Positions 4,458-20,554 of a stretch of DNA of 64,000 nucleotides are shown here, piece by piece. This stretch comes from Marinobacter szutsaonensis (GTDB taxonomy: Bacteria; Pseudomonadota; Gammaproteobacteria; Pseudomonadales; Oleiphilaceae): positions 1,984,001-2,048,000 of the forward strand of contig NZ_BAAAFC010000001.1 of NCBI RefSeq assembly GCF_039523335.1, read 5' to 3'. The notes under the pieces are model-generated. The model searched no databases, was not told where the DNA came from, and was given only the letters and a program-made list of their open reading frames with translations. Position 1 is the stretch's first letter. Each line of letters begins with the position of its first letter. A program made the position numbers and the translations under genes.

Positions 4458-5876
4458 ATGGAGATCCCGGGACCAAGCGCCACGATGGACGAAACCCACC
4501 AGCCATTACCCGAAGCCCGGCAACCACTACTGAGCCGGGTATTTGCCGAATGGCGCACCCTCGCCATTCTTGGCGGACCGATCCTCATCGCCCAGGTTGC
4601 GCAGATGGCGAACGGGGTGATCGATACGGTCATGGCCGGTCACGCCAGCGCCGAGGACCTGGCTGCCGTAGGTATCGGCAGTAGCCTCTGGATGCCACTG
4701 TTCCTGTTTTTCATGGGCGCCCTGAGCGCCCTGCAACCCATCATCTCCGGCTACAACGGCGCCGGTAGCCGAGAAAAGATCATGCCGGCCACCTGGCAAG
4801 GCCTCTACCTGGCCGCCGCCGGCTCGGTGGTCATGATCCTGCTGCTGATCAATGTGAAGCCAGTCCTCACACTGCTGGAACTGGATGCCAACACCACCCG
4901 CATCACCCAGGGTTACCTGGATGCCTTTGCCTGGGGCGTTCCGGCCATGCTGCTGATGGCGGCCTTACGGGGACTGACGGACGGCCTGGGACACACCCGG
5001 GTGATCATGGCATTCTCGGTGCTCAGCACCCTGATCAATCTACCCCTGAACTACATCTTCATCTATGGCAAGCTCGGGCTTCCGGCCATGGGAGGCATCG
5101 GCTGTGGCTGGGCCACATCGTTGTCCAACGGCTTTGCCGCAGTGGCGATGCTGGTTTACCTGAACCGGAGCCGGGTGTACCGGAGCTTCCACCTGATTGC
5201 CGACTGGGCCGCCCCGGACCGGGCGGGTCTGGGTTATATCCTGCGTATCGGCGTGCCAATCGGCTTCACCATTTTCGTCGAAGCGAGCATGTTCGCGGTG
5301 ATTGCGCTGTTCCTGGCACCCCTCGGCCCGGTGGTGGTCGCAGGCCACCAGATTGCCCTGAACGTGGTGTCGCTGCTATTCATGCTGCCATTGAGCCTGG
5401 GTATGGCCCTGACCCTGCGGGTGAGCTTTCTGATCGGCGCCCGGGCGCCGGACAGCGCCCGCCTGATTTCCCGCAGTTCACTGGTACTGGCGGCGGCCAT
5501 TGCACTGGTTTTTGCCACCCTGCTCTACACCTTTTCCCCGGAAATTGCCGCACTGTATTCCGGCGAGGCCGATGTCCGGGCCGTCACCGTGGCCCTGCTG
5601 GGCTTCGCCGCCCTGTTCCAGGTAGCCGATGTGGTGCAGGTAACCTGCATCAGCGCCCTGCGGGGGTACAAGGACACCCGGATTCCCATGTTCATCATGC
5701 TGTTTTCATTCTGGGGGATCGGCCTGCCGCTGGGTTACACCCTGACGTTCACCGACTGGATCGTGCCCGCCATGGGGGCAGCGGGGTTCTGGGTAGGACT
5801 GACCTGTGGCCTTATGTCCGCCAGCCTGCTGCTGGGCTGGCGCCTGTTCCGCTTTACGCCGGATCAGGCTGACTGA
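4458..5876 (+). CDS. MATE family multidrug/Na+ (or H+) antiporter
   Basis: This 472-residue protein has about 12 helices in two related halves. The first half begins with GGPILIAQVAQMANGVIDTV, the typical MATE TM1-TM2 region, and continues with LAAVGIGSSLW. It should export cationic compounds across the inner membrane in exchange for Na+ or H+, as NorM does. The ATG at 4458 is used; an in-frame ATG at 4485 is an alternative and would leave a shorter tail ahead of the first helix. Its end overlaps the convergent diguanylate cyclase by 13 bp. Confidence 0.93.
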   Translation: MEIPGPSATMDETHQPLPEARQPLLSRVFAEWRTLAILGGPILIAQVAQMANGVIDTVMAGHASAEDLAAVGIGSSLWMPLFLFFMGALSALQPIISGYNGAGSREKIMPATWQGLYLAAAGSVVMILLLINVKPVLTLLELDANTTRITQGYLDAFAWGVPAMLLMAALRGLTDGLGHTRVIMAFSVLSTLINLPLNYIFIYGKLGLPAMGGIGCGWATSLSNGFAAVAMLVYLNRSRVYRSFHLIADWAAPDRAGLGYILRIGVPIGFTIFVEASMFAVIALFLAPLGPVVVAGHQIALNVVSLLFMLPLSLGMALTLRVSFLIGARAPDSARLISRSSLVLAAAIALVFATLLYTFSPEIAALYSGEADVRAVTVALLGFAALFQVADVVQVTCISALRGYKDTRIPMFIMLFSFWGIGLPLGYTLTFTDWIVPAMGAAGFWVGLTCGLMSASLLLGWRLFRFTPDQAD

Positions 5877-6868
5877 GGTACCGCGCGAATCCGGGGCTCC
5901 GCAAACACCGCCCGGTCCCGGCCGGTTTCTTTGGCCTGGTACAGGGCGTCGTCGGCCCGGGCAAGCCAGCTATCCACGCGCTCGCCCCAATCGAGCTCGG
6001 CGACACCGAAGGACGCCGTGATTGAACCACCCGGATGCTTCACATGGTTCCGGAGCAGTTGCTGGAGGTTGCCGATCATCGTTTTGAGCCCGACCCCGTC
6101 GATGGCCGGGACCAGCAGAACGAATTCTTCACCACCGTAACGGAACAGCTGGTCGGATTTCCGGGTGTTTTTACGAAGCACGTTGACCAGATCGACAAGA
6201 ACCTCATCCCCGACACTGTGACCATACTCGTCATTGATCTGTTTGAAATGATCGATATCCAGCAGGATCAGGGCACAGGCAATTCCGGTCCGGCTGGCAT
6301 GGGCCTGGGCAATGGCCAGCTCCTCGTCCATGGCCCGGCGGTTCTTCACCCCGGTCAGCGGATCGATGGTGGCCAGGTGTTCCAGACGCCGGCGCTGATC
6401 CTCATTGCGGCTGGCGAAAACGAAGGCGCAGGCACTGACCACCAGGGCAGTGGAGACGAACGAGCCCATCTGTTCAAGGCCGGAGAAGGCCTCCCCCAGG
6501 GCAACCATCAGAACCACCGCCGAGACATTGATGGCGATGGCGACCCGGGGCGGTGTCAGGAAGAAACTGGTAATCAGGCAGGGGTAGAGCCAGAACAGCC
6601 CGGGGTCACCCACAAGCCCCGCCACCACCACGGCCCCGAACGAGGCCACGATGGCCATGACCAGGCCGCTGCGCCGGGTATCGCCGGTTACCCACGCATA
6701 GACCACGCCACCGCAGACACCGCAAAGAATCAGGACGTCGACCACACCCGTCACGACATCGCCCTGGTGAAAGCGCAACACGGCAAACGGCGTAATACCC
6801 AGAAAGCCGCTCAGCCCCAGCAGGGTAATGATGGACAGGCGAAAATCCGATCTAAGGCGTTGGAACAT
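5864..6868 (-). CDS. Membrane diguanylate cyclase (GGDEF)
   Basis: About 334 residues. The N-terminal half holds about six hydrophobic helices. A C-terminal GGDEF domain carries the intact active-site motif GGEEF and, five residues upstream, the RxxD product-inhibition site (RKSD), so it should make c-di-GMP and be feedback-inhibited. LATIDPLTGVKNRRAMDEEL marks the domain start. I prefer the ATG at 6868; a TTG at 6907 would add 13 residues but lacks a ribosome site. It is divergent from the large signalling operon that starts at 7134, separated by 265 bp. Confidence 0.92.
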   Translation of the reverse strand: MFQRLRSDFRLSIITLLGLSGFLGITPFAVLRFHQGDVVTGVVDVLILCGVCGGVVYAWVTGDTRRSGLVMAIVASFGAVVVAGLVGDPGLFWLYPCLITSFFLTPPRVAIAINVSAVVLMVALGEAFSGLEQMGSFVSTALVVSACAFVFASRNEDQRRRLEHLATIDPLTGVKNRRAMDEELAIAQAHASRTGIACALILLDIDHFKQINDEYGHSVGDEVLVDLVNVLRKNTRKSDQLFRYGGEEFVLLVPAIDGVGLKTMIGNLQQLLRNHVKHPGGSITASFGVAELDWGERVDSWLARADDALYQAKETGRDRAVFAEPRIRAVPQSA

Positions 6869-7093
6869 GGAAAAAAGTTTCCGACAAAGGTCGCATGGTG
6901 GTGCCAAGCGTAGCCGAACAAGTCCGACAGGTCGTCATGTCTGGCTATTTTTTAACAATGTTTCATGGTGCGTACAGATTGATACGCAGTGCATCCTTAA
7001 ATGAACCGAAAAACCACATAACCAACAGGGATTTGATAACGTAACTCCGCATTCCGGAAACCAAAATTTACCAAGCGGCAAAAAACGGGCATC

Positions 7094-7099
7094 TATACT
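7094..7099 (+). promoter_or_regulatory. Possible -10 box of the signalling operon
   Basis: TATACT lies 35 bp before the ATG at 7134 within the AT-richer 265-bp divergent space. I see no good -35 at the right distance, so the call is weak. The rest of the space holds only a small dyad, GCGTA/TACGC, at 6970-6987. Confidence 0.25.
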
Positions 7100-7133
7100 G
7101 GGAGCAGCTGAAATTTCACGGTTACGGTTGTCT

Positions 7134-7979
7134 ATGCCCAACGCCCCAACACCCCCGTCAGAACAGGATTTGCTCAACGCCCGCCTGGAGCAGGCCAATC
7201 AACAATTGCTCCAGTCGGAAAAACTGGCGGCCATTGGCCAGCTTGCCGCCGGCGTCGCCCACGAGATCAACAATCCCGTGGGCTACGTCTATTCCAACCT
7301 GCAAACCCTGGACACCTATCTCAACGACCTGTTCCGGCTGACCGAGGCAGTAGACAGCGCCAGGTCACTGGACGACCTCCGGTTGATCAAGCAGAACATT
7401 GACTACGACTATCTGCGGAACGACCTGCGGGATCTGCTGGCGGAGTCCCGGGAAGGCATCGAGCGGGTCAAGACCATCATCGCGGCCATGAAGGACTTCT
7501 CCCACATCGAGGAGGAAGAATTCAAGCCGGCGGATATCCATCGGGGCATCGAGACCACCCTGAACGTGGTCAACAACGAACTGAAGTACAAGGCCGAGGT
7601 GGTGCGGGAGTTCGGAGAGCTGCCGGAGGTGGAATGCATCATCTCCCAGATCAACCAGGTGGTGATGAACCTGCTGGTCAACGCCGCCCATGCCATTGAA
7701 AGTTTTGGCCGAATCACCATTCGCACCCGCCAGCAGGGTGACACTGTCATCATCGAAGTGCAGGACACCGGCAAAGGCATCTCGCCGGAGCATCGGCACC
7801 GGATCTTCGAACCTTTCTTTACCACCAAGCCGGTCGGCAAGGGCACGGGTCTGGGCCTCTCCCTGTCCTTCAACATCATCGAAAAGCATCAGGGCAGCCT
7901 CGACGTGGACAGCACTCCCGGTGAAGGCACCTGCTTCCGCCTGACCCTGCCCATCACTCAACCCGACCTCAACGAATAA
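7134..7979 (+). CDS. Soluble sensor histidine kinase, no obvious input domain
   Basis: This 281-residue cytoplasmic kinase begins with a short coiled coil of about 35 residues. The phosphoacceptor His43 follows in GVAHEINNPVG, and then the HATPase_c domain, with the N-box NLLVNAAHAI, the G1 box DTGKGI and the G2 box GKGTGLGLSL. No membrane segment or PAS domain is visible, so its signal probably comes through a partner. I use the ATG at 7134 (a TTG at 7128 is also in frame). It is the first gene of the eight-gene set, 23 bp ahead of a receiver protein. The HEINNPVG-type H-box is the same as in the second kinase at 9203. Confidence 0.92.
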   Translation: MPNAPTPPSEQDLLNARLEQANQQLLQSEKLAAIGQLAAGVAHEINNPVGYVYSNLQTLDTYLNDLFRLTEAVDSARSLDDLRLIKQNIDYDYLRNDLRDLLAESREGIERVKTIIAAMKDFSHIEEEEFKPADIHRGIETTLNVVNNELKYKAEVVREFGELPEVECIISQINQVVMNLLVNAAHAIESFGRITIRTRQQGDTVIIEVQDTGKGISPEHRHRIFEPFFTTKPVGKGTGLGLSLSFNIIEKHQGSLDVDSTPGEGTCFRLTLPITQPDLNE

Positions 7980-8002
7980 CCGCGGCGATACGGAGACAAG
8001 CC

Positions 8003-8530
8003 ATGATCAAGATTCAGCTGGTGGACGACGAACGCAATATTCTCAGTGCACTGCGCCGGCTGCTCAAACCCGAAGGTTGGGAGGTGCATACCTACGACAA
8101 TGTCGAGGAAGCGCTCGGCAGTCTCCTGGAACACGAGTACGCGGTCATTATCTCGGATTACCGGATGCCCACCGCCGACGGCGTCACCTATCTGCAGTTC
8201 GCCAAACAGCGCCAGCCCGATGCCATCCGTCTGGTACTCAGTGCCTACGGTGATCGGGACTCCATGATCAAGGCCATCAACCAGGCAGAAGTGCATCGGT
8301 ACCTGTCCAAACCCTGGGAAGACCATGAGGTGGTGAGTGCCATCCGCTCGGCCATCGACCTGTACCAGCTGAAAAAGGAAAACCAGCGCCTGCGCCAGGA
8401 AAACGACCGCCAGAAAGACATGCTCCGGGCCCGTGAGGAAGAATTGTTGCGGCTCGAGGCCGAAAACCCGGGCATCACCCGGGTCCAGCGGGATGCCGAT
8501 GGCTCGGTGCTGATTGGCGACGATGACTGA
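8003..8530 (+). CDS. Response regulator: receiver plus C-terminal coiled coil
   Basis: 175 residues. The receiver domain (about 1-120) has the acidic pocket VDDE, the phosphoacceptor Asp in IISDYRMPTADG and the conserved Lys in LSKPWED. The SDYRMP and KPWED signatures place it with receivers of the RpfG/HD-GYP type, but no output domain is present. Instead, residues 120-155 form a charged coiled coil, then a short acidic tail. A likely role is phospho-dependent binding to a partner, perhaps the GTPase encoded 14 bp downstream or the receiver-ATPase; that is inference. Confidence 0.9.
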   Translation: MIKIQLVDDERNILSALRRLLKPEGWEVHTYDNVEEALGSLLEHEYAVIISDYRMPTADGVTYLQFAKQRQPDAIRLVLSAYGDRDSMIKAINQAEVHRYLSKPWEDHEVVSAIRSAIDLYQLKKENQRLRQENDRQKDMLRAREEELLRLEAENPGITRVQRDADGSVLIGDDD

Positions 8531-8544
8531 AGCGGACCTGCGTA

Positions 8545-9213
8545 ATGCCTGATTTCAGCCCGGAAGACAACAAACTCGCCCTGAAGGTGGTGTTCTACGG
8601 CCCGGCCCTGAGCGGCAAGACCACCAACCTGATGCAGCTGCATTCCCTGCTCAATCCGGAGCGCAAGGGCGAGCTGATGGTGCTAGAGACCCGGGACGAC
8701 CGCACCCTGTTTTTCGACATGCTGCCCATCGGTCTGCGCAGCCGCTCCGGGCTGGACCTGAGGCTGAAGCTCTATACCGTGCCCGGACAGGTCCAGCACG
8801 ACAGTACCCGCAAGGCGGTACTGTCCCGGGCCGACGGCGTGGTATTCGTGGCCGACTCCCAGGTCGCCCAGCAGGACAACAACGCCATCGCCTTCGGCAA
8901 CCTGGAAGATAACCTGGACAAGGTAGGCCTGGATATCGACACCCTGCCCATGGTGGTGCAATTCAACAAGCGAGATCTGCCCGCGGTGGTGGACGAGGCC
9001 GAACTCCAGGCACGCTGGGCCGGCACGCCCTGGGCGCCACTGGCCATGGCCTCGGCGCTGCAGGGCACGGGGGTCATCGAAACCTTTCAGGCTTTGCTCG
9101 GCCGTCTTTATACGGGCATCGATGCCGAGTTCGACCTTGCCGGCAAGCACGGCATTGACCGGGCCACTTTCATCGGCCGACTGAGCGCCAGTCACGGGGT
9201 GGATGATGCGTAA
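8545..9213 (+). CDS. MglA-type small Ras-like GTPase
   Basis: 222 residues. The P-loop GPALSGKTTN (about 19-28, Lys25) and the following NLMQLH match bacterial MglA-type GTPases. The G3 region reads TVPGQVQHDSTRK and the G4 motif NKRDLP starts near residue 141. In gliding and twitching bacteria MglA switches cell polarity and recruits motility machinery to a pole. No roadblock/MglB GAP gene is adjacent, so its GAP is elsewhere or replaced by a neighbour. The gene overlaps the next kinase by 11 bp, which suggests coupled synthesis. The nucleotide-binding assignment is firm; the biological role is inferred. Confidence 0.88.
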   Translation: MPDFSPEDNKLALKVVFYGPALSGKTTNLMQLHSLLNPERKGELMVLETRDDRTLFFDMLPIGLRSRSGLDLRLKLYTVPGQVQHDSTRKAVLSRADGVVFVADSQVAQQDNNAIAFGNLEDNLDKVGLDIDTLPMVVQFNKRDLPAVVDEAELQARWAGTPWAPLAMASALQGTGVIETFQALLGRLYTGIDAEFDLAGKHGIDRATFIGRLSASHGVDDA

Positions 9214-10342
9214 CTTCGAGGACGATCCGACACTGTCCGACCTGCTGAACCCGGACCAGCTCCAGAGACTGAGCAACGGGCTGAGCGCCCTGTGCCGGAA
9301 GCCGGTTGAGATCAGCGAAAACCGTGCCCCGGACGCCGTTCCGGTGGAATTCAACCTGGAAACCGTCGGCTGGCTGAGCGGTGGCGCCTCGGCCGGGGAG
9401 CGCGAGGCCGCGGCCGAACTGGTGTCCTTCCTGATGCTGTTCGTGGCCAAGTATCGCCTGGCCGCCAATATCCACCATGACACCACCGAAGCCAGCTATG
9501 CGGAGCTTCAGCGCCAGAACGAAGCCCTCAGGGCATCCGAGGCCAAATACCGGGAACTGTCCGATCAGCTGCAGCAGAAAGTGGATGAACAGGTCGCCGT
9601 GATCCGCCAGACCCAGCAGGAACTCTACGAGAGTGCCCGGTTGCGTTCCGTTGGCCATCTGGCCGCCGGTGTCGCCCATGAGATCAACAATCCCGTCGGG
9701 TTCATCAGCAGCAACCTGCGGATGGCCCGGGAGTATGTCCAGAACCTGGAACCCCTGCTGCCGGAAACCCCCGAGAACCGGGAGCTGCTGGAGGACTTCC
9801 AGGATCTGCTCAGCGAGTCGATCGAGGGAACCGACCGCATTGCCAGCATCGTCGCTGACCTGAAGACCTTCTCCAGCATCGACCAGGCCGACAACGCCCT
9901 GTGCGACCTGAACAGCCTGCTGCGCAGCGCCTGCCACCTGGTACAGACTGAACATGACCACCGCCTGAACATCACCGAGAACCTGGCAGAGCTGCCCAGG
10001 ATTCCGGGCCACCCCTCCAGGCTGTCACAGACCCTTTTCAATTTGCTGGACAACGCGGCCCGGGCAATCGGGGACGATGGCCGCATCCTGGTCAGGACCC
10101 TGGCGGACAATACCGGCATTCAGGTGATTATCCAGGACACCGGCTGTGGCATCCCGGAGACGGTTCGCAGCCAGGTCTTCGATGCCTTTTTCACCACCCG
10201 ACCGGTGGGTTCCGGCACCGGGCTGGGACTCACGGTAGCCCGGGATACGGTCCGCGCCCATGGTGGCCAACTGACACTCGACAGCCAGGAGGGCGCGGGT
10301 ACCCGCGTCGTCCTCTCGCTGCCAGTCCAACAAGGTTCCTGA
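9203..10342 (+). CDS. Histidine kinase with novel N-terminal domain
   Basis: 379 residues. Residues 1-95 are a compact region I do not recognise. A coiled coil (about 95-145) follows, then His159 in GVAHEINNPVGF and an HATPase_c domain with DTGCGIPE and GSGTGLGLTV. No membrane segment is visible. ATG codons at 9203 and 9206 follow a GGGGTGG ribosome site inside the GTPase gene. Its start overlaps the GTPase stop and its TGA abuts the next ATG, so GTPase, kinase and receiver-ATPase are probably made together. The N-terminal domain may sense the GTPase; that is inference. Confidence 0.9.
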   Translation: MMRNFEDDPTLSDLLNPDQLQRLSNGLSALCRKPVEISENRAPDAVPVEFNLETVGWLSGGASAGEREAAAELVSFLMLFVAKYRLAANIHHDTTEASYAELQRQNEALRASEAKYRELSDQLQQKVDEQVAVIRQTQQELYESARLRSVGHLAAGVAHEINNPVGFISSNLRMAREYVQNLEPLLPETPENRELLEDFQDLLSESIEGTDRIASIVADLKTFSSIDQADNALCDLNSLLRSACHLVQTEHDHRLNITENLAELPRIPGHPSRLSQTLFNLLDNAARAIGDDGRILVRTLADNTGIQVIIQDTGCGIPETVRSQVFDAFFTTRPVGSGTGLGLTVARDTVRAHGGQLTLDSQEGAGTRVVLSLPVQQGS

Positions 10343-12589
10343 ATGGCAAATCGCTACGCATCCCTGTTTTACGGAAACGACACCGACAAGCAACCGGCCC
10401 CGGAGCCAACCAAGCGCGCCGCGCCCTATCGGCTGCTGCTGGTGGACGACGAGCCTAACATTCTGGCGTCCCTGCGCCGGGTGTTCCAGCGGGAAAACTA
10501 CGAACTGCTGTTTGCGCGCAGCGGTGCCGAGGCCCTGAAAATCCTGGAAAAGCAGCCGGTCGAGCTGATCATGACCGACTTCATGATGCCGGGGATGAAT
10601 GGCAGCGAACTGCTCCGGGAGGTCCGGGAGCGCTGGCCCCAGACCATCCGTATCATGCTCACCGGCCACGCCAACACCGACGCGGTGATGGGCTCGATCA
10701 AAGACGGCGCCGTCTACCGCTTCATCCTCAAGCCCTGGAACGACGACGACATCCGCCTGACCATCGCCCTGGCGCTGGAGCAGTACGAGCTGATGCAACG
10801 TAACCGGTCTCTGGAGCAACAGACCCAGAAGCAGGACCGGGACCTGGAGACCATCAGCAAGCTGACCGCCACCAACCGCAGTCAGCTGGCCATCCTGCTG
10901 CACAAGAAAGGCTGGCTCAATCCCCAACAGATCCAGCAACTGCACCGGGAAATGCAGAGCCAGAAGACACCGGTGGTGCGACAGCTACTCAAGCATGACT
11001 GGGTGGACTTCACCAAGGTCTTCGAACTGCTGCGGGACGAGATGCTGTTCGAAGAGGTGGACCTGAGGGAGTTCCAGCCGGACCCCAGCCTGCTGTCCCT
11101 GATCCCCCAGAAGATCTGTACCCGCCAGCTGGTGCTGCCGCTGCGGGTCAGTGGCCAGCGCCTGCGCCTGGCCATGGTGGACCCCATGGACATCAACCTG
11201 ATCGACGAGCTCGGGTTCATGACCGGCTACACCATCCACCCGCTGCTGTGCGAAACCTCGCAGATGCAGAACAAGCTGGCGGAGATCTTTGGCGACACCA
11301 ACGATCTGGACGATATCACCACCAAGGTGGGCTCCGACGATCCTTATGAAGGCATCGAGATCGTCCTGGACGAGGACGCCGACCAGGAATCCCTGGAACA
11401 ATTACTGGGCAGCTCCGAAGAGCCACCGGCGATCCGCCTGGTGAATGCCATCATCCTCGAGGCCCTGCGCCTGGGTGCCAGCGACATCCACGTTCATCCC
11501 CGCACCAAGTCGCTGGTGGTGCGCTACCGCATTGACGGGGTACTTCAGGACAAGATCCACATCCCGACCAACCTGCTGATGTCGGTAGTCTCGCGAATCA
11601 AGGTCATGGCCGAACTGGACATCACCGAGCGGCGGCGGCCCCAGGATGGCCGGATTACCGTCAAGACCCCGATGCGGATCGTCGACCTGCGGATTTCCAC
11701 CCTGCCCACCATTAACGGGGAGAAGGTGGTCATGCGGGTTCTGGAGCGCCAGTCCTCCGCGCAGTCTCTGGAGGATCTCGGGCTGTCACAACACAACCTG
11801 GCCCGGCTCAAGCATGTCATCGCCAAGCCCCAGGGCATCATCCTGGCCACCGGCCCCACCGGCAGCGGCAAGACCACCACCCTGTATGCGCTGCTGCAGC
11901 ACAATGCCTCGCCGGAGCGCAATTACGTCACCATTGAGGACCCGGTGGAGTTCCACGTCGACATGGCCGGCCAGGTGCCGGTCAAGGACCGGATCGGACT
12001 GGATTTCGCCAGCGTGCTAAGGGCGATCCTGCGCCAGGATCCGGATGTGATCCTGCTGGGCGAGATCCGGGACGAGGAAACCGCCGATGTGGCGTTCCAC
12101 GCGGCGATGACCGGCCACCTGGTCTATTCTACCCTGCATACCAGTTCCGCCGCGGCCACCGTGGCACGGCTGCTGGATCTGGGCCTGAAGCCTTTCGTGC
12201 TGGCCTCGGCGCTGGAAGCCATCATCGCCCAGCGCCTGGTGCGGCGGATCTGCACCCACTGCCGGGAAGAGACCGAACGGCCGACAGAGGTTCTGGAACA
12301 GCTGGGGCCACAGTTCCTGAGTGAGGATCTGCGTTTCTATCGCGGCCGGGGCTGCGAGAAATGTCACAAGGGTTACAAGGGCCGGGTCGCCATTCACGAA
12401 GTGCTGACCATGAACGAGGAACTCCGGATTGCCATTACCGAAGGGGCCAGTGCCATGCAGATTGAGACCCTCGCACGGGAGAAGGGCATGATGGTGCTGC
12501 TGGACGATGCCCTGGAAAAACTGCGGGACGGTCTGACCACCGCCGACGAAATCCTGCGACTGCTGGGCCCCCAGGTACTCCATGGTTAA
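10343..12589 (+). CDS. Receiver-GspE/PilB-type secretion ATPase fusion
   Basis: 748 residues. A receiver domain (about 28-150; VDDE, phosphoacceptor Asp79 in MTDFMMPGMNG, ILKPWND) is joined to a region resembling the MshEN/GspE N-domain (about 170-330). A complete type II/IV secretion ATPase follows: Walker A GPTGSGKTTT (504-513), Walker B region DPDVILLGEIRDEET, and a zinc-type tetracysteine (Cys637, 640, 671, 674) as in GspE/PilB. Such ATPases power pilus or pseudopilus assembly. No pilus or secretion genes lie in the window, so this is an orphan motor whose activity is probably set by phosphorylation of Asp79. The N-domain might bind c-di-GMP as MshE does, but I cannot confirm the motif. 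Confidence 0.9.
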   Translation: MANRYASLFYGNDTDKQPAPEPTKRAAPYRLLLVDDEPNILASLRRVFQRENYELLFARSGAEALKILEKQPVELIMTDFMMPGMNGSELLREVRERWPQTIRIMLTGHANTDAVMGSIKDGAVYRFILKPWNDDDIRLTIALALEQYELMQRNRSLEQQTQKQDRDLETISKLTATNRSQLAILLHKKGWLNPQQIQQLHREMQSQKTPVVRQLLKHDWVDFTKVFELLRDEMLFEEVDLREFQPDPSLLSLIPQKICTRQLVLPLRVSGQRLRLAMVDPMDINLIDELGFMTGYTIHPLLCETSQMQNKLAEIFGDTNDLDDITTKVGSDDPYEGIEIVLDEDADQESLEQLLGSSEEPPAIRLVNAIILEALRLGASDIHVHPRTKSLVVRYRIDGVLQDKIHIPTNLLMSVVSRIKVMAELDITERRRPQDGRITVKTPMRIVDLRISTLPTINGEKVVMRVLERQSSAQSLEDLGLSQHNLARLKHVIAKPQGIILATGPTGSGKTTTLYALLQHNASPERNYVTIEDPVEFHVDMAGQVPVKDRIGLDFASVLRAILRQDPDVILLGEIRDEETADVAFHAAMTGHLVYSTLHTSSAAATVARLLDLGLKPFVLASALEAIIAQRLVRRICTHCREETERPTEVLEQLGPQFLSEDLRFYRGRGCEKCHKGYKGRVAIHEVLTMNEELRIAITEGASAMQIETLAREKGMMVLLDDALEKLRDGLTTADEILRLLGPQVLHG

Positions 12590-15500
12590 CGCGCTCAAGC
12601 GACCGGCCTTCTGGCATTGCCTGACCCTCGCCCTGGCCATATCCCTGGGCTCCGTGGGGCTGATCATCCTGATTGACTTCGGCGTCAGCGGGCCGGAAGG
12701 CGTCGGCCGTCTGTCACTGCGTCCCGGCGGTGGGCTGATCGCACTGACCCTGTCCGCCGCCCTCCTGGCGCTGTTGTTGCGGTACCGCTGGCTCGCGACC
12801 GGCCTGGGTTTCGGCCTTATTGCCCTGGCCTCGCTGCTGACACTGGCACCTCGCTTACCCGACAGCGACTGGCTGGATATCGCTGCTCTCAATCCGTTAC
12901 TGCTGCTAGTGATTCTGCTGATCAGCCTGAGCGGGCTCGCCGCCATGCACCTGTCCCGGGGCTGGTTTGTCGGGCTGGTCTGCGGCCCGATAGTGTTCAG
13001 CCTCGGCCTGCTGTCCTTGCTGTCCCACTGGCATCCGGGATTGGCCGCCCTGGGGCTGGGCAATATCACAGAATCCACCCTGGTCCTCAGTCCCCTGGTG
13101 ATGCTCGCGGGCTTGATCCTGCCGTTCCTGTATTCCATCTATCACAGCGAAGTGCAGTTCTATTCCAAGGGTCTGCTCGTGCTTGGCATCCTGGGCATCC
13201 TGATCACCACTCTGAGCTGGCACGCCCTGCGCCTGCAATCCGGTGAGCGCCTGATCGAACGGGCCGAGTCACTGGCGAGTCAGCTCGAGGCCTCCGCCAA
13301 CTCCGCGTTCGACGTCAAACTGGCGTTGATCCGCCGCCTGGCCGAGCGCTGGGAGCTGCTCGACGGTGTCCCCTCACAGACGTTCTGGGAGCAGGAAGTG
13401 AGCAGCTACCTCCGTGACTTCCCGGACCTTCGGCTGATCAGCATCCTCAACCGGGAGCACAACCCGGTGCGCACCGAATCCCGCACCCTCGACTACCGTG
13501 GCTGGCTGGAGATCTTCCTGTCAGACCGGCGAAACCGGGATTGGCTCGATCACATCATCAAGTCCCGCAGCGCACACCTCAGTGCACCACTGGCCGACAA
13601 TCAAGACCGATATCATGCGGCCATCGCCGTTCCAATCACTCCGGGCCCGGGGTATTCGTGGTCGGTTCTTGCCGTGGTGGATCTCCAGACCGTCTACGAG
13701 AAGTTGACGGCCTATTATGATGGCAACTTGCACATCAAGGTGTACCACCACGGCGAGGCCGTCTTCGATAGCGCACCGGATATCCCCCCGGCCCAGGAAT
13801 CCCTGCTGGCTTCCCAGCGAATCACGCCACACCACGACAGTGAACGTCGGATCGAAGTCTACACCCGCAGAGGCAGCCTTCCGCCGGGCGAACTCTACCT
13901 GCCACCGGCGGTTCTGTTCACCGGCCTGGGACTGAGCTTCCTGGTGATGCTGTCGCATTTTTTCTGGCGTCAGTCCGAACAACGTACCCGAAGCCTGGCG
14001 GAACTGAACGAGGTGCTGAACCAGCACCTGGAGGAGGAGCGGGAACTGCGGACCACCAACGAGACCCTGTCCCGGGAACGGGACCAGTTCTTCGCACTGT
14101 CTCCGGACATGTTCTGCATCGTTGACCTCAACAGCCATTTCTTCGAGCTCAACGAAACCTTTGTCCATACCCTGGGCTACACCCGCGACCAGCTGCTGGG
14201 CAGCTCCTACATGGACCTGATCCACGCAGAAGATCACGAGAAGGTCATCCGGGCGGTGCAATCACTGACCGAAGGCCACGAGGTCAAGGACCTGCTGATC
14301 CGGGCCCTGGACTGTGAAGGCAACCCGCACTGGCTGCAGATCAACGCCATTCTCAGTGCCGACGACCTGATCTACGTGGTCGCCAGGGACACCACCGACC
14401 AGCTGGCGATTGAAGAGAAGCTGAGGGAAAACGAGGCCCTGCTCAAACTCGCCGAACGCCTGGCGCAGCTGGGCGGCTGGGTGATTGACCTGTCAACCGG
14501 CAAATCGGTCTGGTCGGATGCCGTCTGCGACATCCACGAGCTACCGCGGGGCCAGGCGCCGGACGTGGAGGACGCCATCAATTTCTATGTCGACGAGCAC
14601 CGGGAGCAAATCCGGGCAGCGGTGGTGCTGTGTGCAGAAACCGGCATTCCGTTCGACGAGGAGCTGCAGATACGCACTGCCAAGGGTAACCTGCGCTGGG
14701 TGCGATCCATCGGCCATGCGGTACAGGACGATGAGGGCAAGGTGGTGAAACTCCAGGGCGCGTTCCAGGACATCACCGCCAGCCATCAGGCCGTGGAGCA
14801 GATCCGGCGCTATGCGGAACGACAAGCGATCATTTTCGAGAGCATCACAGACGCTTTCTACACTGTCGACAACGACTGGCGCTTTACCTACATCAACCGC
14901 AAATCTGAAGAGCTGCTACGCAAAAACCGGGACGACTTGTTGGGCCACAACCTCTGGGAGATTTTCCCGGATACCATCGGCACGGAGCTGGATGACCAGT
15001 ATCGGTACGCAATGGAAACCGGCAACTCGGTGTCGTTCGAATTTTATTACCCGCCCCTGAACGAATGGCTCGAAGTCAGCGCCTACCCCTCGGACGAAGG
15101 ACTGGCGGTCTACTACCGCAGCATCTGGGAGCGCAAGGAAGCCCAGCAGAAACTGGAAGCGGCCATGGCCGAGCTGGAACGCAGCAACCGTGAACTCCAG
15201 GATTTCGCCTTCGTCGCATCCCATGACCTGCAGGAACCCCTGCGCAAAATCCAGGCCTTCTCCGACCGGCTGATCACCAAGTCCGACCAGTTTGGCTCGA
15301 CTGAACAGGACTACCTCAACCGCATGCAGTCTGCTGCAGGGCGCATGCAACAGCTGATCGAGGATCTGCTGAGTTATTCCCGGGTGACCACGCGCGCCAA
15401 GCCGATGGCACTGTGCCACACCGATGACGTCCTCGCAGGCGTGCTGCAGGATCTGGACACCGCCATTACCCGGGAGCAGGCCCGCATCAAGGTTCAGCCG

Positions 15501-15884
15501 CTACCGGACCTGGTGGGAGACGCGACCCAGCTGCGCCAGGTGTTCCAGAATCTGCTCAGCAACGCCATCAAATTCCATGCCCCCGACACACCACCGGAAA
15601 TTTCCGTCTATGCTGAGAATGTCAGTGACTCGGGCTGGACCCTGGTGGTGCAGGACCAGGGGATCGGATTCGATCCACGCTACACCCAGAAATTGTTCCA
15701 CCCGTTCCAGCGCCTGCATAGCCGGGAAGGGTATGCAGGTACCGGGATTGGCATGGCCATTGTGAAAAAAATCCTGGATCGCCACGGTGCGGAGATCACC
15801 GTGGTTAGCGCGCCCGGGGAAGGAACCACGTTCCGGATCCGGTTCACAAGCAGTCCTGCACAGGAGCAGAGCAAGGATGGATAA
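12582..15884 (+). CDS. Membrane multi-PAS sensor histidine kinase
   Basis: 1100 residues. About seven N-terminal helices (1-220) precede a probable extracytoplasmic sensor domain (225-440) and another helix (about 443-465). Three PAS domains follow (about 500-620, 625-745, 750-870), then HisKA with His881 in FVASHDLQEPLRK and an HATPase_c domain ending in GYAGTGIGMAIVKK. The SHDLQEPLRK H-box is typical of phytochrome-like kinases whose partner is an Rcp1-like receiver, and such a gene overlaps its 3' end by 8 bp. It overlaps the ATPase gene upstream by 8 bp. The signal is unknown; no chromophore-binding GAF/PHY domain is visible. Confidence 0.92.
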   Translation: MVNALKRPAFWHCLTLALAISLGSVGLIILIDFGVSGPEGVGRLSLRPGGGLIALTLSAALLALLLRYRWLATGLGFGLIALASLLTLAPRLPDSDWLDIAALNPLLLLVILLISLSGLAAMHLSRGWFVGLVCGPIVFSLGLLSLLSHWHPGLAALGLGNITESTLVLSPLVMLAGLILPFLYSIYHSEVQFYSKGLLVLGILGILITTLSWHALRLQSGERLIERAESLASQLEASANSAFDVKLALIRRLAERWELLDGVPSQTFWEQEVSSYLRDFPDLRLISILNREHNPVRTESRTLDYRGWLEIFLSDRRNRDWLDHIIKSRSAHLSAPLADNQDRYHAAIAVPITPGPGYSWSVLAVVDLQTVYEKLTAYYDGNLHIKVYHHGEAVFDSAPDIPPAQESLLASQRITPHHDSERRIEVYTRRGSLPPGELYLPPAVLFTGLGLSFLVMLSHFFWRQSEQRTRSLAELNEVLNQHLEEERELRTTNETLSRERDQFFALSPDMFCIVDLNSHFFELNETFVHTLGYTRDQLLGSSYMDLIHAEDHEKVIRAVQSLTEGHEVKDLLIRALDCEGNPHWLQINAILSADDLIYVVARDTTDQLAIEEKLRENEALLKLAERLAQLGGWVIDLSTGKSVWSDAVCDIHELPRGQAPDVEDAINFYVDEHREQIRAAVVLCAETGIPFDEELQIRTAKGNLRWVRSIGHAVQDDEGKVVKLQGAFQDITASHQAVEQIRRYAERQAIIFESITDAFYTVDNDWRFTYINRKSEELLRKNRDDLLGHNLWEIFPDTIGTELDDQYRYAMETGNSVSFEFYYPPLNEWLEVSAYPSDEGLAVYYRSIWERKEAQQKLEAAMAELERSNRELQDFAFVASHDLQEPLRKIQAFSDRLITKSDQFGSTEQDYLNRMQSAAGRMQQLIEDLLSYSRVTTRAKPMALCHTDDVLAGVLQDLDTAITREQARIKVQPLPDLVGDATQLRQVFQNLLSNAIKFHAPDTPPEISVYAENVSDSGWTLVVQDQGIGFDPRYTQKLFHPFQRLHSREGYAGTGIGMAIVKKILDRHGAEITVVSAPGEGTTFRIRFTSSPAQEQSKDG

Positions 15885-16317
15885 ACCTGTAAAGCCCGCC
15901 CTGGTGGTGGTTGCCGATGATGACCCGGACGACTGCCTGATGATCCGGGAAGCCTTCGAGGATCAGTGTGCCGACTGCACCCTGTGTTTTGTCCACGACG
16001 GCGAAGAACTGATGGATTTCCTCCATGGCCAGCATCCGGACCGCGAGGGCCAGATCTGTCCGGTTCCGGACCTGTTGCTGCTGGACCTGAACATGCCACT
16101 AAAGGATGGCCGCCAGTCCCTGCAGGAGATCAAGTCCGATCCCCGACTGCAGGTACTGCCTACGGTCATCATGACCACATCCAGTGATCAGGATGACCGG
16201 GACTTCTGCCAGCAGCGGGGTGCCAACGACTACATCGTCAAGCCCCGGAAATACAGTGATTTGCTGGATGTCGTAGAGTCACTCACAAAACAGTGGATTA
16301 ACAGGGAACATGACTGA
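15877..16317 (+). CDS. Rcp1-like single-domain response regulator
   Basis: 146 residues, a lone receiver of the Rcp1 type: acidic pocket ADDDPDD, phosphoacceptor Asp in LLLDLNMPLKDG, conserved Thr in IMTTSSD and Lys in IVKPRKY. The ATG at 15877 lies within the kinase gene and gives the standard length; it overlaps the kinase stop by 8 bp. It should be the direct phosphotransfer partner of the kinase at 12582 and could pass phosphate to or from the receivers of the following LOV protein. It also overlaps that gene by 8 bp, so the three are probably coupled in translation. Confidence 0.92.
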   Translation: MDKPVKPALVVVADDDPDDCLMIREAFEDQCADCTLCFVHDGEELMDFLHGQHPDREGQICPVPDLLLLDLNMPLKDGRQSLQEIKSDPRLQVLPTVIMTTSSDQDDRDFCQQRGANDYIVKPRKYSDLLDVVESLTKQWINREHD

Positions 16318-19162
16318 TCCGATGCTCCGCGTCCTGCTCATCGAGGACGACGAAGACGATTACCTGATCACACGGGATCTCCTGCACGACGTCAGCCCCT
16401 CGGGCGTTGAACTGATCTGGCGCGACACCATGACGGCCGGCCTCGAAATCCTCGAGCAGGAGCGGATCGATGTCACCCTGGTGGATCTCCGTCTGGGCCC
16501 GGATTCCGGCCTGGAGGTTATCCGGGAAGCCCAGGCCAGCGGCGTTACCTCTCCCTTCATCCTGCTCACCGGTCAGGGCGATGCGGAACTGGATGCCCGA
16601 GCCGTGGAACTGGGTGCGGCAGACTACCTGGTCAAGGGCCGACTGGATGGCCAGACCCTGATTCGCAGCATTCGTTACGCGGCAGACCGGGCGGCGGCCA
16701 ATGAGGACCTGGCCAGCAGCGAAGCCCATTACCGCCTGCTGTTTGAAAACAATCCCGCGCCCATGTACCTGGTGCAGCCGGAGTCGGGGCGTATCGAATC
16801 CATGAACGGCGCTGCCATGGCGCTCTATGGCTTCAGGGCCGGAGAAACCGTTGACCTGTCACTGCCGGATCTGCGGTGCAATGCCAGTCCCGTCCCCCGG
16901 GAGGGCGTCATCCTGCGCGAGGGTAGCAGCCTGGAGGAACACCTGACCCGGAATGGCAACAGCCTGTATGTCGAACTCCTTTCCGAGCGCATTTTTGTCG
17001 ATCATCATCCCCTCGATCTGGTGATGGTCACCGACATGACCCGGCAGATCGACAACAACCGTCGGCTGCGTTTACTGCAACAGTGCATCGAATCCAGCTC
17101 CAACGGCATTATCATCTCCGATGCCCAACAGCCGGACATGCCACTGGTTTACGTGAATCCCACTTTTGAGCGAATCACCGGCTACAGTCGGGAGGAATCA
17201 ATTGGCCGTAACTGCCGCTTCCTTCAGGGTAGCGGTGAGGACCCTAGCAACGAACAGGCGCTGGTGGAGATCCGTAAAGCCCTCGCCACCGGCGGTGAAA
17301 CGTCCGTGGTGCTGCGCAACTTCCGCAAGGATGGGACGCCCTTCTGGAACGACTTGTACCTGTCGCCAATCCGGAATGACGAGGGTGAAGTGACCCACTT
17401 CGTCGGCGTCCAGAATGATATTTCCGAACGCAAAGATGTGGAAAACCAACTGGCCTATAACGCCAGCCACGATGTGCTTACCCAACTGCCCAACCGGGCC
17501 CTGCTGGAAGACCGTCTGGAACAGGCCTGCCGCTTCGCCCAGCGCCATGGCCGCACCCTGGCCCTGCTGTTCATCGACCTGGACGGCTTCAAGCTGATCA
17601 ATGACTCACTCGGCCATCGCACCGGGGACAAGCTGCTGATCGAGGTGGCCCGCCGGCTCATGGAGGTCTGCCGGACCGGGGATACGGTGGCGCGGGTCAG
17701 TGGCGACGAGTATGTGATGTTGTTGCCGGACCTGGACCGCAACGACGATGCGCTGATGGTGGTCGAACAGATCATGCGCACGCTCTCCGCGCCCTATAAC
17801 GTCAACGACGAAAACCTGCACCTGACCGCCAGCATCGGCATTGCCACCACCGACGGCAGCATCAGCCAGCCCACGGAACTGATCCAGCAGGCCGACCTGG
17901 CCATGTACCGGGCCAAACAGATGGGGCGGAACAGCTATCAGTGGTTTTCCGAGCAGCTCAACACCGAGGCCAGCTACCGGGTCAAGCTGCGCAATGAGCT
18001 ACAGGATGCCATCGACAATGAGCGGCTCACGCTCTATTACCAGCCTCTGATCGATTCCCGAACCGGCAAGGCCCGGGCCGTGGAAGCCCTGGTGCGCTGG
18101 AACCACCCGGAACGGGGCCTGGTATCTCCGGGAGATTTCCTGCCCCTGGCGGAAGAAACCGGGCAGATCATCGCGCTGGGCCAGTGGGTCTTGGAGCAAG
18201 CCTGCAAAGACATGCTCCGGCTGCATAAGGCCGGGTTCAAGGACTGCACGGTAGCCGTGAACGTGTCACCGATGCAGGTACGCAAATCCGGCTTTATTGG
18301 CACCGTCAGCGATACCCTGGAAACCTCCGGCCTGCCCCCGGAAGCCCTGGAACTGGAAATTGTCGAGTCGGCGGTGCTCTACGACGCCGATCAGGTGATC
18401 AGGACCCTGCATGATCTGAGAGATCTCGGGGTAGGCATTGCCATTGACGATTTCGGCACCGGTTTTTCCAGTCTCAGCTACATCAAACTGTTGCCGGCCA
18501 ACAAGATCAAGATCGACCGCTCCTTCATCCGGGACGTCATCCAGGACCGCAGTGACGCTGCCATCACCCAGGGGGTGATTTCCATGGCCCATCACCTGTC
18601 CCTGGACGTGGTGGCGGAAGGGGTGGAGACCGACGCCCAGGCCGCTTTCCTGCGCCGGAATCAGTGCGACCTGCTGCAGGGGTTCCTGTTCGCCCGGCCC
18701 ATGCCGCTCGATCTGCTGGAAGAGTACATGCATACCCGGGGCGGCTACGCCAGCAGCGCTGCCGATGATCAGGACAGCCCCGATAAGACCCTGTTGCTGC
18801 TGGATGACGAGAGCAACATCCTGCGGGCACTGACCCGGGTATTACGACGGGATGGCTACCGGATCCTGACCACCACCAGTGTGCAGGAAGCCTTCAGCCT
18901 GCTGGCCGAGAACGATGTCCAGGTGATCATCTCGGACCAGCGGATGCCGGAAATGTCCGGCACGGAGTTTCTCAGCCGGGTGAAGGCAATACACCCGGGT
19001 ACTGTCCGTATTGTGCTATCCGGTTACACCGACCTGAAATCGGTGACCGAAGCCATCAACGAGGGCTCGATCTACAAGTTCCTGACCAAGCCCTGGGATG
19101 ACAAACAGATCCGGGAGCACGTACAGAAGGCGTTCCAGCACCACCAGACCCTCCAGGGCTGA
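16310..19162 (+). CDS. REC-PAS-LOV-GGDEF-EAL-REC light-type c-di-GMP enzyme
   Basis: 950 residues. An N-terminal receiver (Asp59 in LVDLRLG) is followed by a PAS domain (about 140-250) and a LOV domain (258-375). The LOV motif GRNCRFLQG holds the flavin-adduct Cys302, with supporting RNFRKDG, FWND and FVGVQND. The GGDEF domain has a variant SGDEY (464-468). The EAL domain (E592-A-L) keeps AVNVSP, ELEIVES, IDDFGTGFSS, KIDRSF, VAEGVET and LLQGF, so phosphodiesterase activity is likely. A second receiver (Asp876 in ISDQRMPEM; LTKPWDD) ends it. Blue light and phosphorylation should both set c-di-GMP turnover. It is the last gene of the operon and abuts convergent fghA. Confidence 0.93.
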   Translation: MTDPMLRVLLIEDDEDDYLITRDLLHDVSPSGVELIWRDTMTAGLEILEQERIDVTLVDLRLGPDSGLEVIREAQASGVTSPFILLTGQGDAELDARAVELGAADYLVKGRLDGQTLIRSIRYAADRAAANEDLASSEAHYRLLFENNPAPMYLVQPESGRIESMNGAAMALYGFRAGETVDLSLPDLRCNASPVPREGVILREGSSLEEHLTRNGNSLYVELLSERIFVDHHPLDLVMVTDMTRQIDNNRRLRLLQQCIESSSNGIIISDAQQPDMPLVYVNPTFERITGYSREESIGRNCRFLQGSGEDPSNEQALVEIRKALATGGETSVVLRNFRKDGTPFWNDLYLSPIRNDEGEVTHFVGVQNDISERKDVENQLAYNASHDVLTQLPNRALLEDRLEQACRFAQRHGRTLALLFIDLDGFKLINDSLGHRTGDKLLIEVARRLMEVCRTGDTVARVSGDEYVMLLPDLDRNDDALMVVEQIMRTLSAPYNVNDENLHLTASIGIATTDGSISQPTELIQQADLAMYRAKQMGRNSYQWFSEQLNTEASYRVKLRNELQDAIDNERLTLYYQPLIDSRTGKARAVEALVRWNHPERGLVSPGDFLPLAEETGQIIALGQWVLEQACKDMLRLHKAGFKDCTVAVNVSPMQVRKSGFIGTVSDTLETSGLPPEALELEIVESAVLYDADQVIRTLHDLRDLGVGIAIDDFGTGFSSLSYIKLLPANKIKIDRSFIRDVIQDRSDAAITQGVISMAHHLSLDVVAEGVETDAQAAFLRRNQCDLLQGFLFARPMPLDLLEEYMHTRGGYASSAADDQDSPDKTLLLLDDESNILRALTRVLRRDGYRILTTTSVQEAFSLLAENDVQVIISDQRMPEMSGTEFLSRVKAIHPGTVRIVLSGYTDLKSVTEAINEGSIYKFLTKPWDDKQIREHVQKAFQHHQTLQG

Positions 19163-20008
19163 TCAGATCAGCCCGAGGGCCTTGGCATGATGGTTCAGGT
19201 GATCGTCGATGAACGAGGCGATGAAGAAATAGCTGTGGTCGTAGCCCCGGTGCATGCGCAGGTTGATGTGGTGGTGGAATTTTTCACAGATGTCCGCCAG
19301 CGCCTCCGGGTTGAGCTGGGTCTCGAGAAACTCGTCGGCGGTACCCTGGTCCACCAGCAGCGGCAGACGTTCCCGGGCCGTGGGGATCAGCAGTGTAGCA
19401 TCCCACTGCTCCCAGCTTGACCGATCGTCGCCCAGGTAACCGCTGAACGCCTTCTGGCCCCAGGGGCATTCAGTCGGATTGGCAATCGGTGCAAACGCAG
19501 ACACCGACTGGTAGCGCCCCGGGTTTTTCAGGGCACAGATCAGGGCACCGTGCCCCCCCATGGAATGGCCACTGACCGATCGCTGGTCCGTCACCGGCAG
19601 TTCGTTCTCCACCAGCTGCGGCAATTCCTTCACCACGTAATCGTACATCCGGTAATGGGGAGCCCAGGGCTGCTGGGTGGCATTGATGTAGAAACCCGCG
19701 CCGGTTCCGAAGTCGTAGTTGTCATCCTCGCCCGGCAAGTTGAGTCCCCGTGGGCTGGTGTCCGGGCACACGATGGCCAGACCCAGTTTCGCGGCCAGTT
19801 TCTGGGCACCGGCTTTCTCCATGAAGTTCTGGTCGGTGCAGGTCAGCCCGGACAGCCAGTAGAGTACCGGTGCCGGTTTAGGCGAGTTGCCCACGGCGGA
19901 GGGAGGCAGAAACACCGCGAACTCCATATCGCATTCGAGGCTCGCGGAGGTGTGGCGATAACGGCGGTGCTCGCCACCGAAACAAACGTTTGTGGATAGC
20001 AGTTCCAT
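19163..20008 (-). CDS. fghA: S-formylglutathione hydrolase
   Basis: 281 residues, the usual length for the esterase D family. It hydrolyses S-formylglutathione to formate and glutathione, the second step of glutathione-dependent formaldehyde removal. The nucleophile elbow GHSMGGHGAL is clear, preceded by the family stretch YWLSGLTCTDQNF; the C-terminal HRGYDHSYFF supplies the catalytic His. The expected partner, a glutathione-dependent formaldehyde dehydrogenase (adhC), is not next to it. It is separated by 27 bp from the upstream CBS gene on the same strand. Confidence 0.95.
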   Translation of the reverse strand: MELLSTNVCFGGEHRRYRHTSASLECDMEFAVFLPPSAVGNSPKPAPVLYWLSGLTCTDQNFMEKAGAQKLAAKLGLAIVCPDTSPRGLNLPGEDDNYDFGTGAGFYINATQQPWAPHYRMYDYVVKELPQLVENELPVTDQRSVSGHSMGGHGALICALKNPGRYQSVSAFAPIANPTECPWGQKAFSGYLGDDRSSWEQWDATLLIPTARERLPLLVDQGTADEFLETQLNPEALADICEKFHHHINLRMHRGYDHSYFFIASFIDDHLNHHAKALGLI

Positions 20009-20035
20009 AATGGATCCCGGTCTGAAAAGGTGAAC

Positions 20036-20470: not shown

Positions 20471-20554
20471 GGGCAAATTCCTCCACTTCCGTTTTCATCG
20501 CAGACCAAACCGACACGTCTATCCCTAAACATAGGCAATCAGGGGGCAAAAGGA

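Follow-up and report, generated by a model that had tools for sequence, protein, structure and literature searches.

A linked MglA-type GTPase, histidine kinase and receiver-bearing PilB/GspE-class ATPase in Marinobacter szutsaonensis and its relatives

Introduction

What holds together a row of eight signalling genes in which two-component kinases and receivers stand beside an MglA-type small GTPase, a PilB/GspE-class ATPase and an enzyme of cyclic di-GMP (c-di-GMP) metabolism? The row lies at positions 7134..19162 of a 64,000-nucleotide stretch of DNA, the window (C1:1984001-2048000), in the 3.96-Mb genome of Marinobacter szutsaonensis. An earlier note on this DNA, written from the sequence alone, reported eight co-directional genes and took them for a single machine. 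All eight open reading frames (ORFs) are present. The conserved unit, however, is three genes, encoding the GTPase, a soluble histidine kinase (HK2) and an ATPase that carries its own receiver, and their linkage is well supported; the five further signalling genes are accessories that vary between lineages. The gene set suggests an unrecognised control of surface appendages, and no account of it was found in full-text literature searches, for which most subscription papers and all supplementary files lay outside reach.

A core of three linked genes

Relatives were collected by scanning named genomes with the window ATPase alone, the GTPase not serving as a query, and the best 80 of the 293 related stretches were analysed (L numbers denote loci and G numbers genomes of this analysis). 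These 80 loci span Marinobacter, Pseudomonas, Stutzerimonas and many Betaproteobacteria (Dechloromonas, Zoogloea, Sulfuricella, Methylotenera, Gallionella and others), those of Marinobacter pelagius being the nearest to the window. In 74 of these loci the genes for the GTPase (8545..9213, plus strand, as are all eight), HK2 (9206..10342) and the ATPase (10343..12589) are consecutive among the matched genes, on one strand, with HK2 in the middle and only short gaps or overlaps between them. Four of the remaining six are contig ends with 0-844 bp upstream (L069, L077, L081, L106); the others are L099, where one extra receiver precedes the ATPase, and L055 (Marinobacter sp. X15-166B), where HK2 is split into two ORFs, by a natural break or a sequencing error, between a full-length GTPase and a full-length ATPase. 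The order is kept in many genera, down to identities of about 34% for HK2, 52% for the GTPase and 57% for the ATPase. Conservation of gene order in relatives, without which the earlier note would have given up its proposal, holds for the core, and because the order recurs in named Gamma- and Betaproteobacteria it is not chance. Long ORFs in L090 and L092, of 1102 and 1169 aa, look like a fusion of HK2 to the ATPase, a reading that was rejected: HK2 has its own reading frame there, which overlaps the start of the ATPase gene by 4 bp, and the long ORF arises when the ATPase frame is extended upstream.

The same pairing was seen when genomes rather than loci were counted. In a family profile of 163 genomes, with the GTPase scored at E <= 0.001 and the ATPase at E <= 1e-200 (best candidates per genome), both proteins were found in the same 46 genomes and neither in the other 117 at these cut-offs. 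In all 46 the two genes share contig and strand and lie 1133-1450 bp apart, about the length of one kinase gene. Fisher's exact test gives p of about 1e-41 for the co-occurrence, a value that overstates independence as the genomes are related. Thirty-three of these carriers belong to the window's genus and 13 to four other genera, and many genomes of the window's genus have neither gene. In a class sample of 369 genomes, drawn evenly, the ATPase occurs in seven including the window's own, and each of the six others holds the GTPase 1.2-1.3 kb away; the link between GTPase and receiver-ATPase that the earlier note had singled out is therefore real. An order sample of 194 genomes gave seven GTPase matches, one of them weak at 28% identity. 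In genome G595 the aligned stretch of the GTPase match (C1:2335381-2336046) includes one in-frame TGA, which may be where the gene naturally stops or may interrupt it.

Distance matrices of the three core proteins correlate at r 0.958-0.962 (74 loci, L055 and L112 left out; species phylogeny uncorrected), which shows joint inheritance and is no proof of interaction. A reading of the three core proteins as a defence system found no support, with one weak match, at the P-loop.

A PilB/GspE-class ATPase behind a receiver

The ATPase (Pfam PF00072, PF05157 and PF00437, in the order REC-(N1D)-MshEN-T2SSE) keeps the whole PilB layout of N1D, MshEN/N2D, motor domain, Walker A and cysteine pairs behind a receiver and linker. 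The receiver, of KPW type, spans 10436..10762 (residues 32-140), with D35 and W132 present in 80/80 copies, and the T2SSE motor domain, with GPTGSGKTT and two CxxC pairs, spans 11417..12559 (residues 359-739). On the PilB model TIGR02538 the window ATPase matches from position 2 to 560 of 564 yet scores 573.3 bits, below the cut-off of 675.65, and four relatives score 532-566; the PilB of the same genome, used as a positive control, passes at 851.7. It also falls below the cut-offs for GspE (TIGR02533, 544.5 against 630.25 bits) and TfpB (NF053534, 423.1 against 850), both read without a positive control, and it is about equally far, at 36-38% identity, from the PilB, GspE and MshE-like proteins of its own genome.

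The c-di-GMP-binding form of the MshEN domain is defined by two motifs of the type RLGxx(L/V/I)...G...Q (PMC10333796). Where the MshE-like protein of the same genome has RLGDLLV and KLGKTLV, the window ATPase reads SQLAILL and PVVRQLL. The first RLG motif keeps its R and G in 20 to 21 of the 80 ATPase copies; two of the ATPases that do so, those of L100 and L115, have a degenerate second motif.

No T2SSF platform match of the window's genome lies within the window. The genome as a whole has ten matches to T2SSE and eight to T2SSF; the eight make up three two-domain proteins and one tandem pair, all of which neighbour other ATPases. Of 52 carriers, 49 have a full PilC-type platform at 55% identity or above, and in the carrier G576 (99% complete) it is the only platform match at E <= 1e-20. 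Elsewhere in the window's genome, outside the window, a second PilB/GspE-like ATPase without an adjoining T2SSF match was noticed (L132:4791-8188; G000:C1 about 796,800-800,200); it bears a protein-isoaspartate methyltransferase-like N-terminal domain, an AAA_5 ATPase gene adjoins it, and next to it stands a gene that we take to be MinD/ParA-like.

The GTPase and the question of MglB

Pfam places the GTPase only weakly, as Arf-type (23.2 bits against a cut-off of 22.3), and its class is read from a structure search and residue conservation. The nearest solved structures are named MglA, at E 2.7e-42 to 2.1e-41; presumably they are those of M. xanthus and T. thermophilus. Residues R53, T54, T78-V79-P80-G81-Q82 (TVPGQ), K142 and D144 are invariant in 76/76 aligned copies. 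Group 1 MglA proteins are characterised by an arginine finger beside the G2 threonine, TVPGQ in G3 and [NT]KxD in G4 (PMC4316618), and, judged by sequence, the GTPase has this arginine finger, TVPGQ and [NT]KxD in all 76 copies.

MglA proteins are usually coupled to an MglB (390 of 449), and the gene neighbourhoods of Group 1 vary widely (PMC4316618). No match to Roadblock (PF03259) was found in 43 of the 52 carrier genomes, so that MglB seems not to be a necessary component of the module. The window's genome has two Roadblock matches. One of them, which stands alone, was considered as the cognate GTPase-activating protein and rejected: it occurs in 8 of the 163 family genomes, five with and three without the GTPase. 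The other lies about 4 kb from a different GTPase, of the GTPGQ type. A separate cluster at L130:5043-10359 (G000:C1 about 1,951,000-1,956,400) contains a Roadblock protein, a 177-aa small GTPase with GTPGQ and a 934-aa protein that matches c-di-GMP phosphodiesterase models below their cut-offs, and resembles the Group 3 MglA systems of PMC4316618.

The kinase between GTPase and ATPase

HK2, assigned by Pfam and position, may alternatively start at an ATG at 9203. HisKA and HATPase_c were matched in 58/58 aligned copies at E up to 1. The AlphaFold model of the window protein has a mean pLDDT of 88.9, and in a fold search with it at full length generic kinase cores dominate among the matches listed. 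Ahead of the kinase core stands a short N-terminal domain of about 90 residues (9206..9480), for which fold comparison used a separate model of the L107 copy. Read as Roadblock, the domain found no support by sequence, and the L107 model gave no Foldseek match at E <= 0.001; a second structure aligner tied MglB with many GAF domains, a result consistent with a GAF/Roadblock-like fold.

If such a fold bound the GTPase and took the place of the missing MglB, GTP hydrolysis and receiver phosphorylation would be two outputs of one protein, and the module would be a proteobacterial counterpart of the actinobacterial conservons that drives a secretion-class motor directly. We consider this unlikely.

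The block upstream of the core

Upstream of the core the window holds HK1, a soluble histidine kinase (7134..7979, Pfam), and RR1, a lone receiver with a C-terminal tail (8003..8530, Pfam). According to the locus maps, the gap between them (7980..8002) is where many relatives have a gene of about 440-460 aa for a receiver fused to an HD-GYP domain (REC-HD-GYP). Of 68 loci with 5.5 kb or more of upstream sequence, 55 have HK1, 49 have REC-HD-GYP on the same strand and 53 have RR1, and the similarity thresholds may miss some. RR1 has D52 and K103-P104-W105 in 65/65 aligned copies. HK1 scores 333 bits on the NCBI family T2SS_HK (NF038348), below the cut-off of 450, its kinase half matching and its sensor half not, and six HK1-type relatives score 322-395; the family name suggests that curators may have seen part of this neighbourhood. 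The input domain of the HK1 family, as read from its sequences, is variable: beside the module of Formivibrio citricus an HK1-type kinase (L088:12226-13698) carries a hemerythrin domain, and others have PAS or GAF.

HK1 and RR1 are adjacent in L040-L043, L047, L067 and L086, and in most other Marinobacter loci REC-HD-GYP lies between them. Neither the window nor its closest relatives (L040-L043, L086) have the gene in the cluster; this applies to the cluster and not to the rest of the window's genome, which was not searched for it. All three REC-HD-GYP proteins tested (L084, L044, L076) exceed the cut-off of 400 for the NosR family NF053512, at 566, 553 and 579 bits. In an alignment of 69 rows, which includes at least three repeats of one contig, 33 have the H-D pair, 24 have Y-N in its place and 12 vary. 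The Y-N rows (L044, L045, L048-L059, L061-L066, L095, L104, L117, L152) are all from Marinobacter, Pseudomonas or Stutzerimonas. That the gene persists despite the change of its H-D pair suggests a pseudo-enzyme that retains a receiver role, and in the window's lineage it looks as if a c-di-GMP phosphodiesterase decayed and was then lost from the cluster. A clean swap of HD-GYP for EAL was rejected, as a GGDEF-EAL-like gene also lies upstream in several betaproteobacterial loci whose HD pair is intact.

The position of the block varies. In L145-L147 and L150 HK1, REC-HD-GYP and RR1 lie on the opposite strand beyond the ATPase with the core intact; in L087 and L114 only HD-GYP and HK1 are labelled there, again on the opposite strand; and in L151 and L060 an HD-GYP and RR1 pair is found downstream instead. 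The block on the other strand beyond the ATPase shows that it can move apart from the core.

The block downstream of the core

In the window the ATPase gene is followed by HK3, a multi-PAS histidine kinase whose N-terminal half is hydrophobic (12582..15884, Pfam), by RR2, a lone receiver of another type (15877..16317, Pfam and receiver comparison), and by a REC-PAS-LOV-GGDEF-EAL-REC enzyme (16310..19162, Pfam, with motifs GRNCRFLQG, EAL, DDFG and SGDEY). Scored as present where the few labelled genes that come next include matches of both RR2 type and EAL type, this block follows the ATPase in 30 of the 68 loci with at least 7 kb downstream; all are Marinobacter, Pseudomonas or Stutzerimonas except L096, from a gammaproteobacterial metagenome-assembled genome. 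Most of the 38 loci without it are betaproteobacterial or come from other records outside Marinobacter. The core stands with neither block nearby in six Zoogloea-type loci (L090, L093, L097, L100, L111, L112), some of which have another kinase upstream.

Similarity sets one group of receivers apart. Those of RR1, the ATPase, the C-terminus of the EAL enzyme and two REC-HD-GYPs are 32-52% identical to one another, whereas RR2 and the N-terminal receiver of the EAL enzyme share 12-24% identity with these and with one another. In the kinase region HK1 and HK2 are 40% identical, and HK3 is 25% identical to both. The simplest inference from these sequences is that there are two partly separate phosphorelays, in which HK1 and HK2 would serve the KPW-type receivers and HK3 would serve RR2 or the N-terminal receiver of the EAL enzyme, with the EAL enzyme placed to read both.

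Layout of the eight genes and their surroundings

The domain make-up given in the earlier note agrees with Pfam, which finds HisKA/HATPase_c in the three kinases, a lone REC twice, the GTPase and the REC, MshEN and T2SSE domains of the ATPase, several PAS matches with HisKA/HATPase_c in HK3, and REC, PAS, GGDEF, EAL and a second REC in the last enzyme, where GRNCRFLQG is the LOV-type motif; the box HEINNPVG that it described is in both soluble kinases, HK1 and HK2. Its account of close spacing among the first three genes also stands (gaps of 23 bp and 14 bp). From the GTPase onward, where it counted five overlaps of 8-11 bp plus one end-to-end junction, there are five junctions in all, four of them 8-bp overlaps and one end-to-end; the first overlap is 11 bp if HK2 starts at 9203. 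The diguanylate cyclase that it placed diverging from the front of the cluster is a GGDEF protein with the motif GGEEF (5864..6907, minus strand, Pfam), and such a divergent cyclase precedes the module in many Marinobacter loci. By eye its N-terminus and that of HK3 are hydrophobic, and their membrane location is putative. An esterase gene in convergent orientation follows the cluster. Between 6800 and 20200 a scan found 2 promoter-like sites, against 2.9 expected from shuffled sequence, and 11 terminator-like ones, against 9.2; these counts neither break nor prove an operon, and no structured RNA reached the gathering score in 5500-20500.

Proposed mechanism and its alternatives

The three core genes are very probably functionally coupled, and the ATPase receiver is probably phosphorylated by HK2 or HK1. 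For the core as a whole we propose a phosphorylation- and GTP-gated auxiliary motor on a type IV pilus platform, a reading to which we give an even chance. HK2 would phosphorylate the ATPase's own receiver, and the signal would set assembly, placement or activity of the motor directly and not by way of gene expression. The GTPase, with its own arginine finger, would act as a switch, either spatial or on/off, whose state HK2 or the ATPase reads or sets; we infer both its binding to one of these proteins and the pairing of kinase with receiver. Because no platform gene lies beside it in the window's genome, the ATPase would act on the cell's existing PilC platform, as an auxiliary or alternative, conditional extension motor. 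The block of HK1, REC-HD-GYP and RR1 would add environmental input, an intact HD-GYP lowering c-di-GMP; in the window's lineage the cluster lacks the HD-GYP gene and is followed by a LOV-EAL enzyme with an ATPase-type receiver. The proposal has precedents: in M. xanthus MglA-GTP acts through SgmX to place PilB (PMC7519303, PMC7668184), in A. baylyi one pilus has two extension motors (PMC8213720, PMC11656802), and in certain species PdeK-PdeR is needed for the localisation of PilB and FimX (PMC11656802).

Several observations weigh against parts of this proposal. Extension ATPases are generally specific to their own machinery, according to a review (PMC11656802). The PilC-type platform was counted in carriers alone, and its co-occurrence is therefore weak support for a pilus target; moreover, G295 and G302 (82 and 88% complete) have only platform paralogues and G346 only a fragment. 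Nine of the 52 carriers, the window's own genome among them, do have a Roadblock protein. Direct gating of the ATPase by c-di-GMP is unlikely, to judge from its sequence, because the MshEN RLG motifs are degenerate. The module is uncommon, with 7/369 genomes in the class sample and, by the GTPase, 7/194 in the order sample, and since the loci are the best 80 of 293 ATPase matches, more distant relatives without the GTPase may exist.

As target of the motor we favour the type IV pilus by an even or slightly better chance. The same coupling of three proteins could instead serve another type II secretion-like or MSHA-like platform, or the ATPase could be a regulatory subunit, forming mixed assemblies with PilB, GspE or MshE or holding them back. 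This would fit an ATPase equidistant from those three and below the cut-offs for PilB, GspE and TfpB, a genome with no T2SSF platform match inside the window, and the name T2SS_HK, a hint that an HK1-like kinase was seen near a secretion-type ATPase. An obligatory type II secretion or MSHA target is nonetheless disfavoured by G576, which has the module and a PilC-type protein as its sole platform match, and the PilB profile is matched nearly end to end with the whole motor layout kept. We regard a non-pilus role as somewhat unlikely, although less so than the other readings that compete with the proposed pilus motor.

The earlier note's single machine of eight genes, in which light, membrane signals and c-di-GMP would jointly reset a polar motor, survives in part, as a conserved core of three. 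Its compact junctions speak for it, every gene from the GTPase on being joined to the next by an 8-bp overlap or end to end, as do the 30 of 68 loci in which the HK3-RR2-EAL block follows the core and the ATPase-type receiver at the C-terminus of the EAL enzyme. The block is nevertheless lacking in the other 38, mostly Betaproteobacteria or other non-Marinobacter records, six Zoogloea-type loci have the core with neither block nearby, RR2 and the N-terminal receiver of the EAL enzyme stand apart from the KPW-type receivers and REC-HD-GYP is missing from the window's own cluster, so that the full set is quite unlikely to be one machine. Still less probable, and in our view very improbable, is that the genes are merely co-inherited as a transferred cassette with no joint function. 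Their patchy presence, with 33 same-genus carriers among 46 and many same-genus genomes without either gene, would fit a mobile cassette, but the order persists across many genera at the low identities given above, at the cut-offs used neither GTPase nor ATPase occurs without the other in any of the 163 family genomes, and in L145-L147 and L150 the second block moves as a unit to the other strand and leaves the core intact.

If the proposed auxiliary pilus motor is correct, a two-component kinase and a Ras-like GTPase would have a direct chemical link to a PilB-class motor, the motor itself being the response regulator. The set is compact and linked in Gamma- and Betaproteobacteria, open to deletion and reconstitution, and makes two questions testable, namely how MglA-type GTPases function when MglB is absent and why extra pilus-type motors are retained in some bacteria.

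Comparison with known systems

The actinobacterial conservons consist of the kinase CvnA, the Roadblock protein CvnB, CvnC and the GTPase CvnD. They share with the present module a histidine kinase and an MglA-family GTPase as neighbours, and differ from it in that the GTPase here has TVPGQ and the arginine rather than the GTPGQ of Groups 2-5, a motor ATPase is added, and most carriers are without Roadblock. Among the matched genes of the mapped loci the GTPase is followed by HK2 and then by the ATPase.

Related in parts is the MglA-SgmX-PilB system of M. xanthus (PMC7519303, PMC7668184), where a small GTPase with Group 1 catalytic residues is likewise tied to a PilB-class extension motor; here the motor has a receiver, a kinase gene stands between those of GTPase and motor, all lie in one cluster, and most carriers are without Roadblock/MglB. 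SofG, an orphan MglA paralogue that positions PilB and PilT, also has an arginine finger, no dedicated MglB identified and a tie to pilus ATPases (PMC4316618); the accessible part of that description mentions no kinase or receiver-motor partner for SofG. TfpB, the second extension motor of A. baylyi (PMC8213720), is likewise a PilB-class ATPase beside a canonical PilB; the window ATPase scores 423 bits against the TfpB cut-off of 850, and the accessible part of that paper mentions no receiver, kinase or GTPase for TfpB. In MshE and other c-di-GMP-binding MshEN ATPases MshEN precedes T2SSE, as it does here, but the present ATPase has degenerate RLG motifs and an additional receiver at its N-terminus. 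In the PdeK-PdeR-FimX-PilZ-PilB pathway of Xanthomonas (PMC11656802) a phosphorelay and a c-di-GMP phosphodiesterase also act on a pilus extension ATPase; there an EAL enzyme distinct from the motor serves as response regulator and acts by way of FimX, whereas here the receiver is on the motor itself and a GTPase is added.

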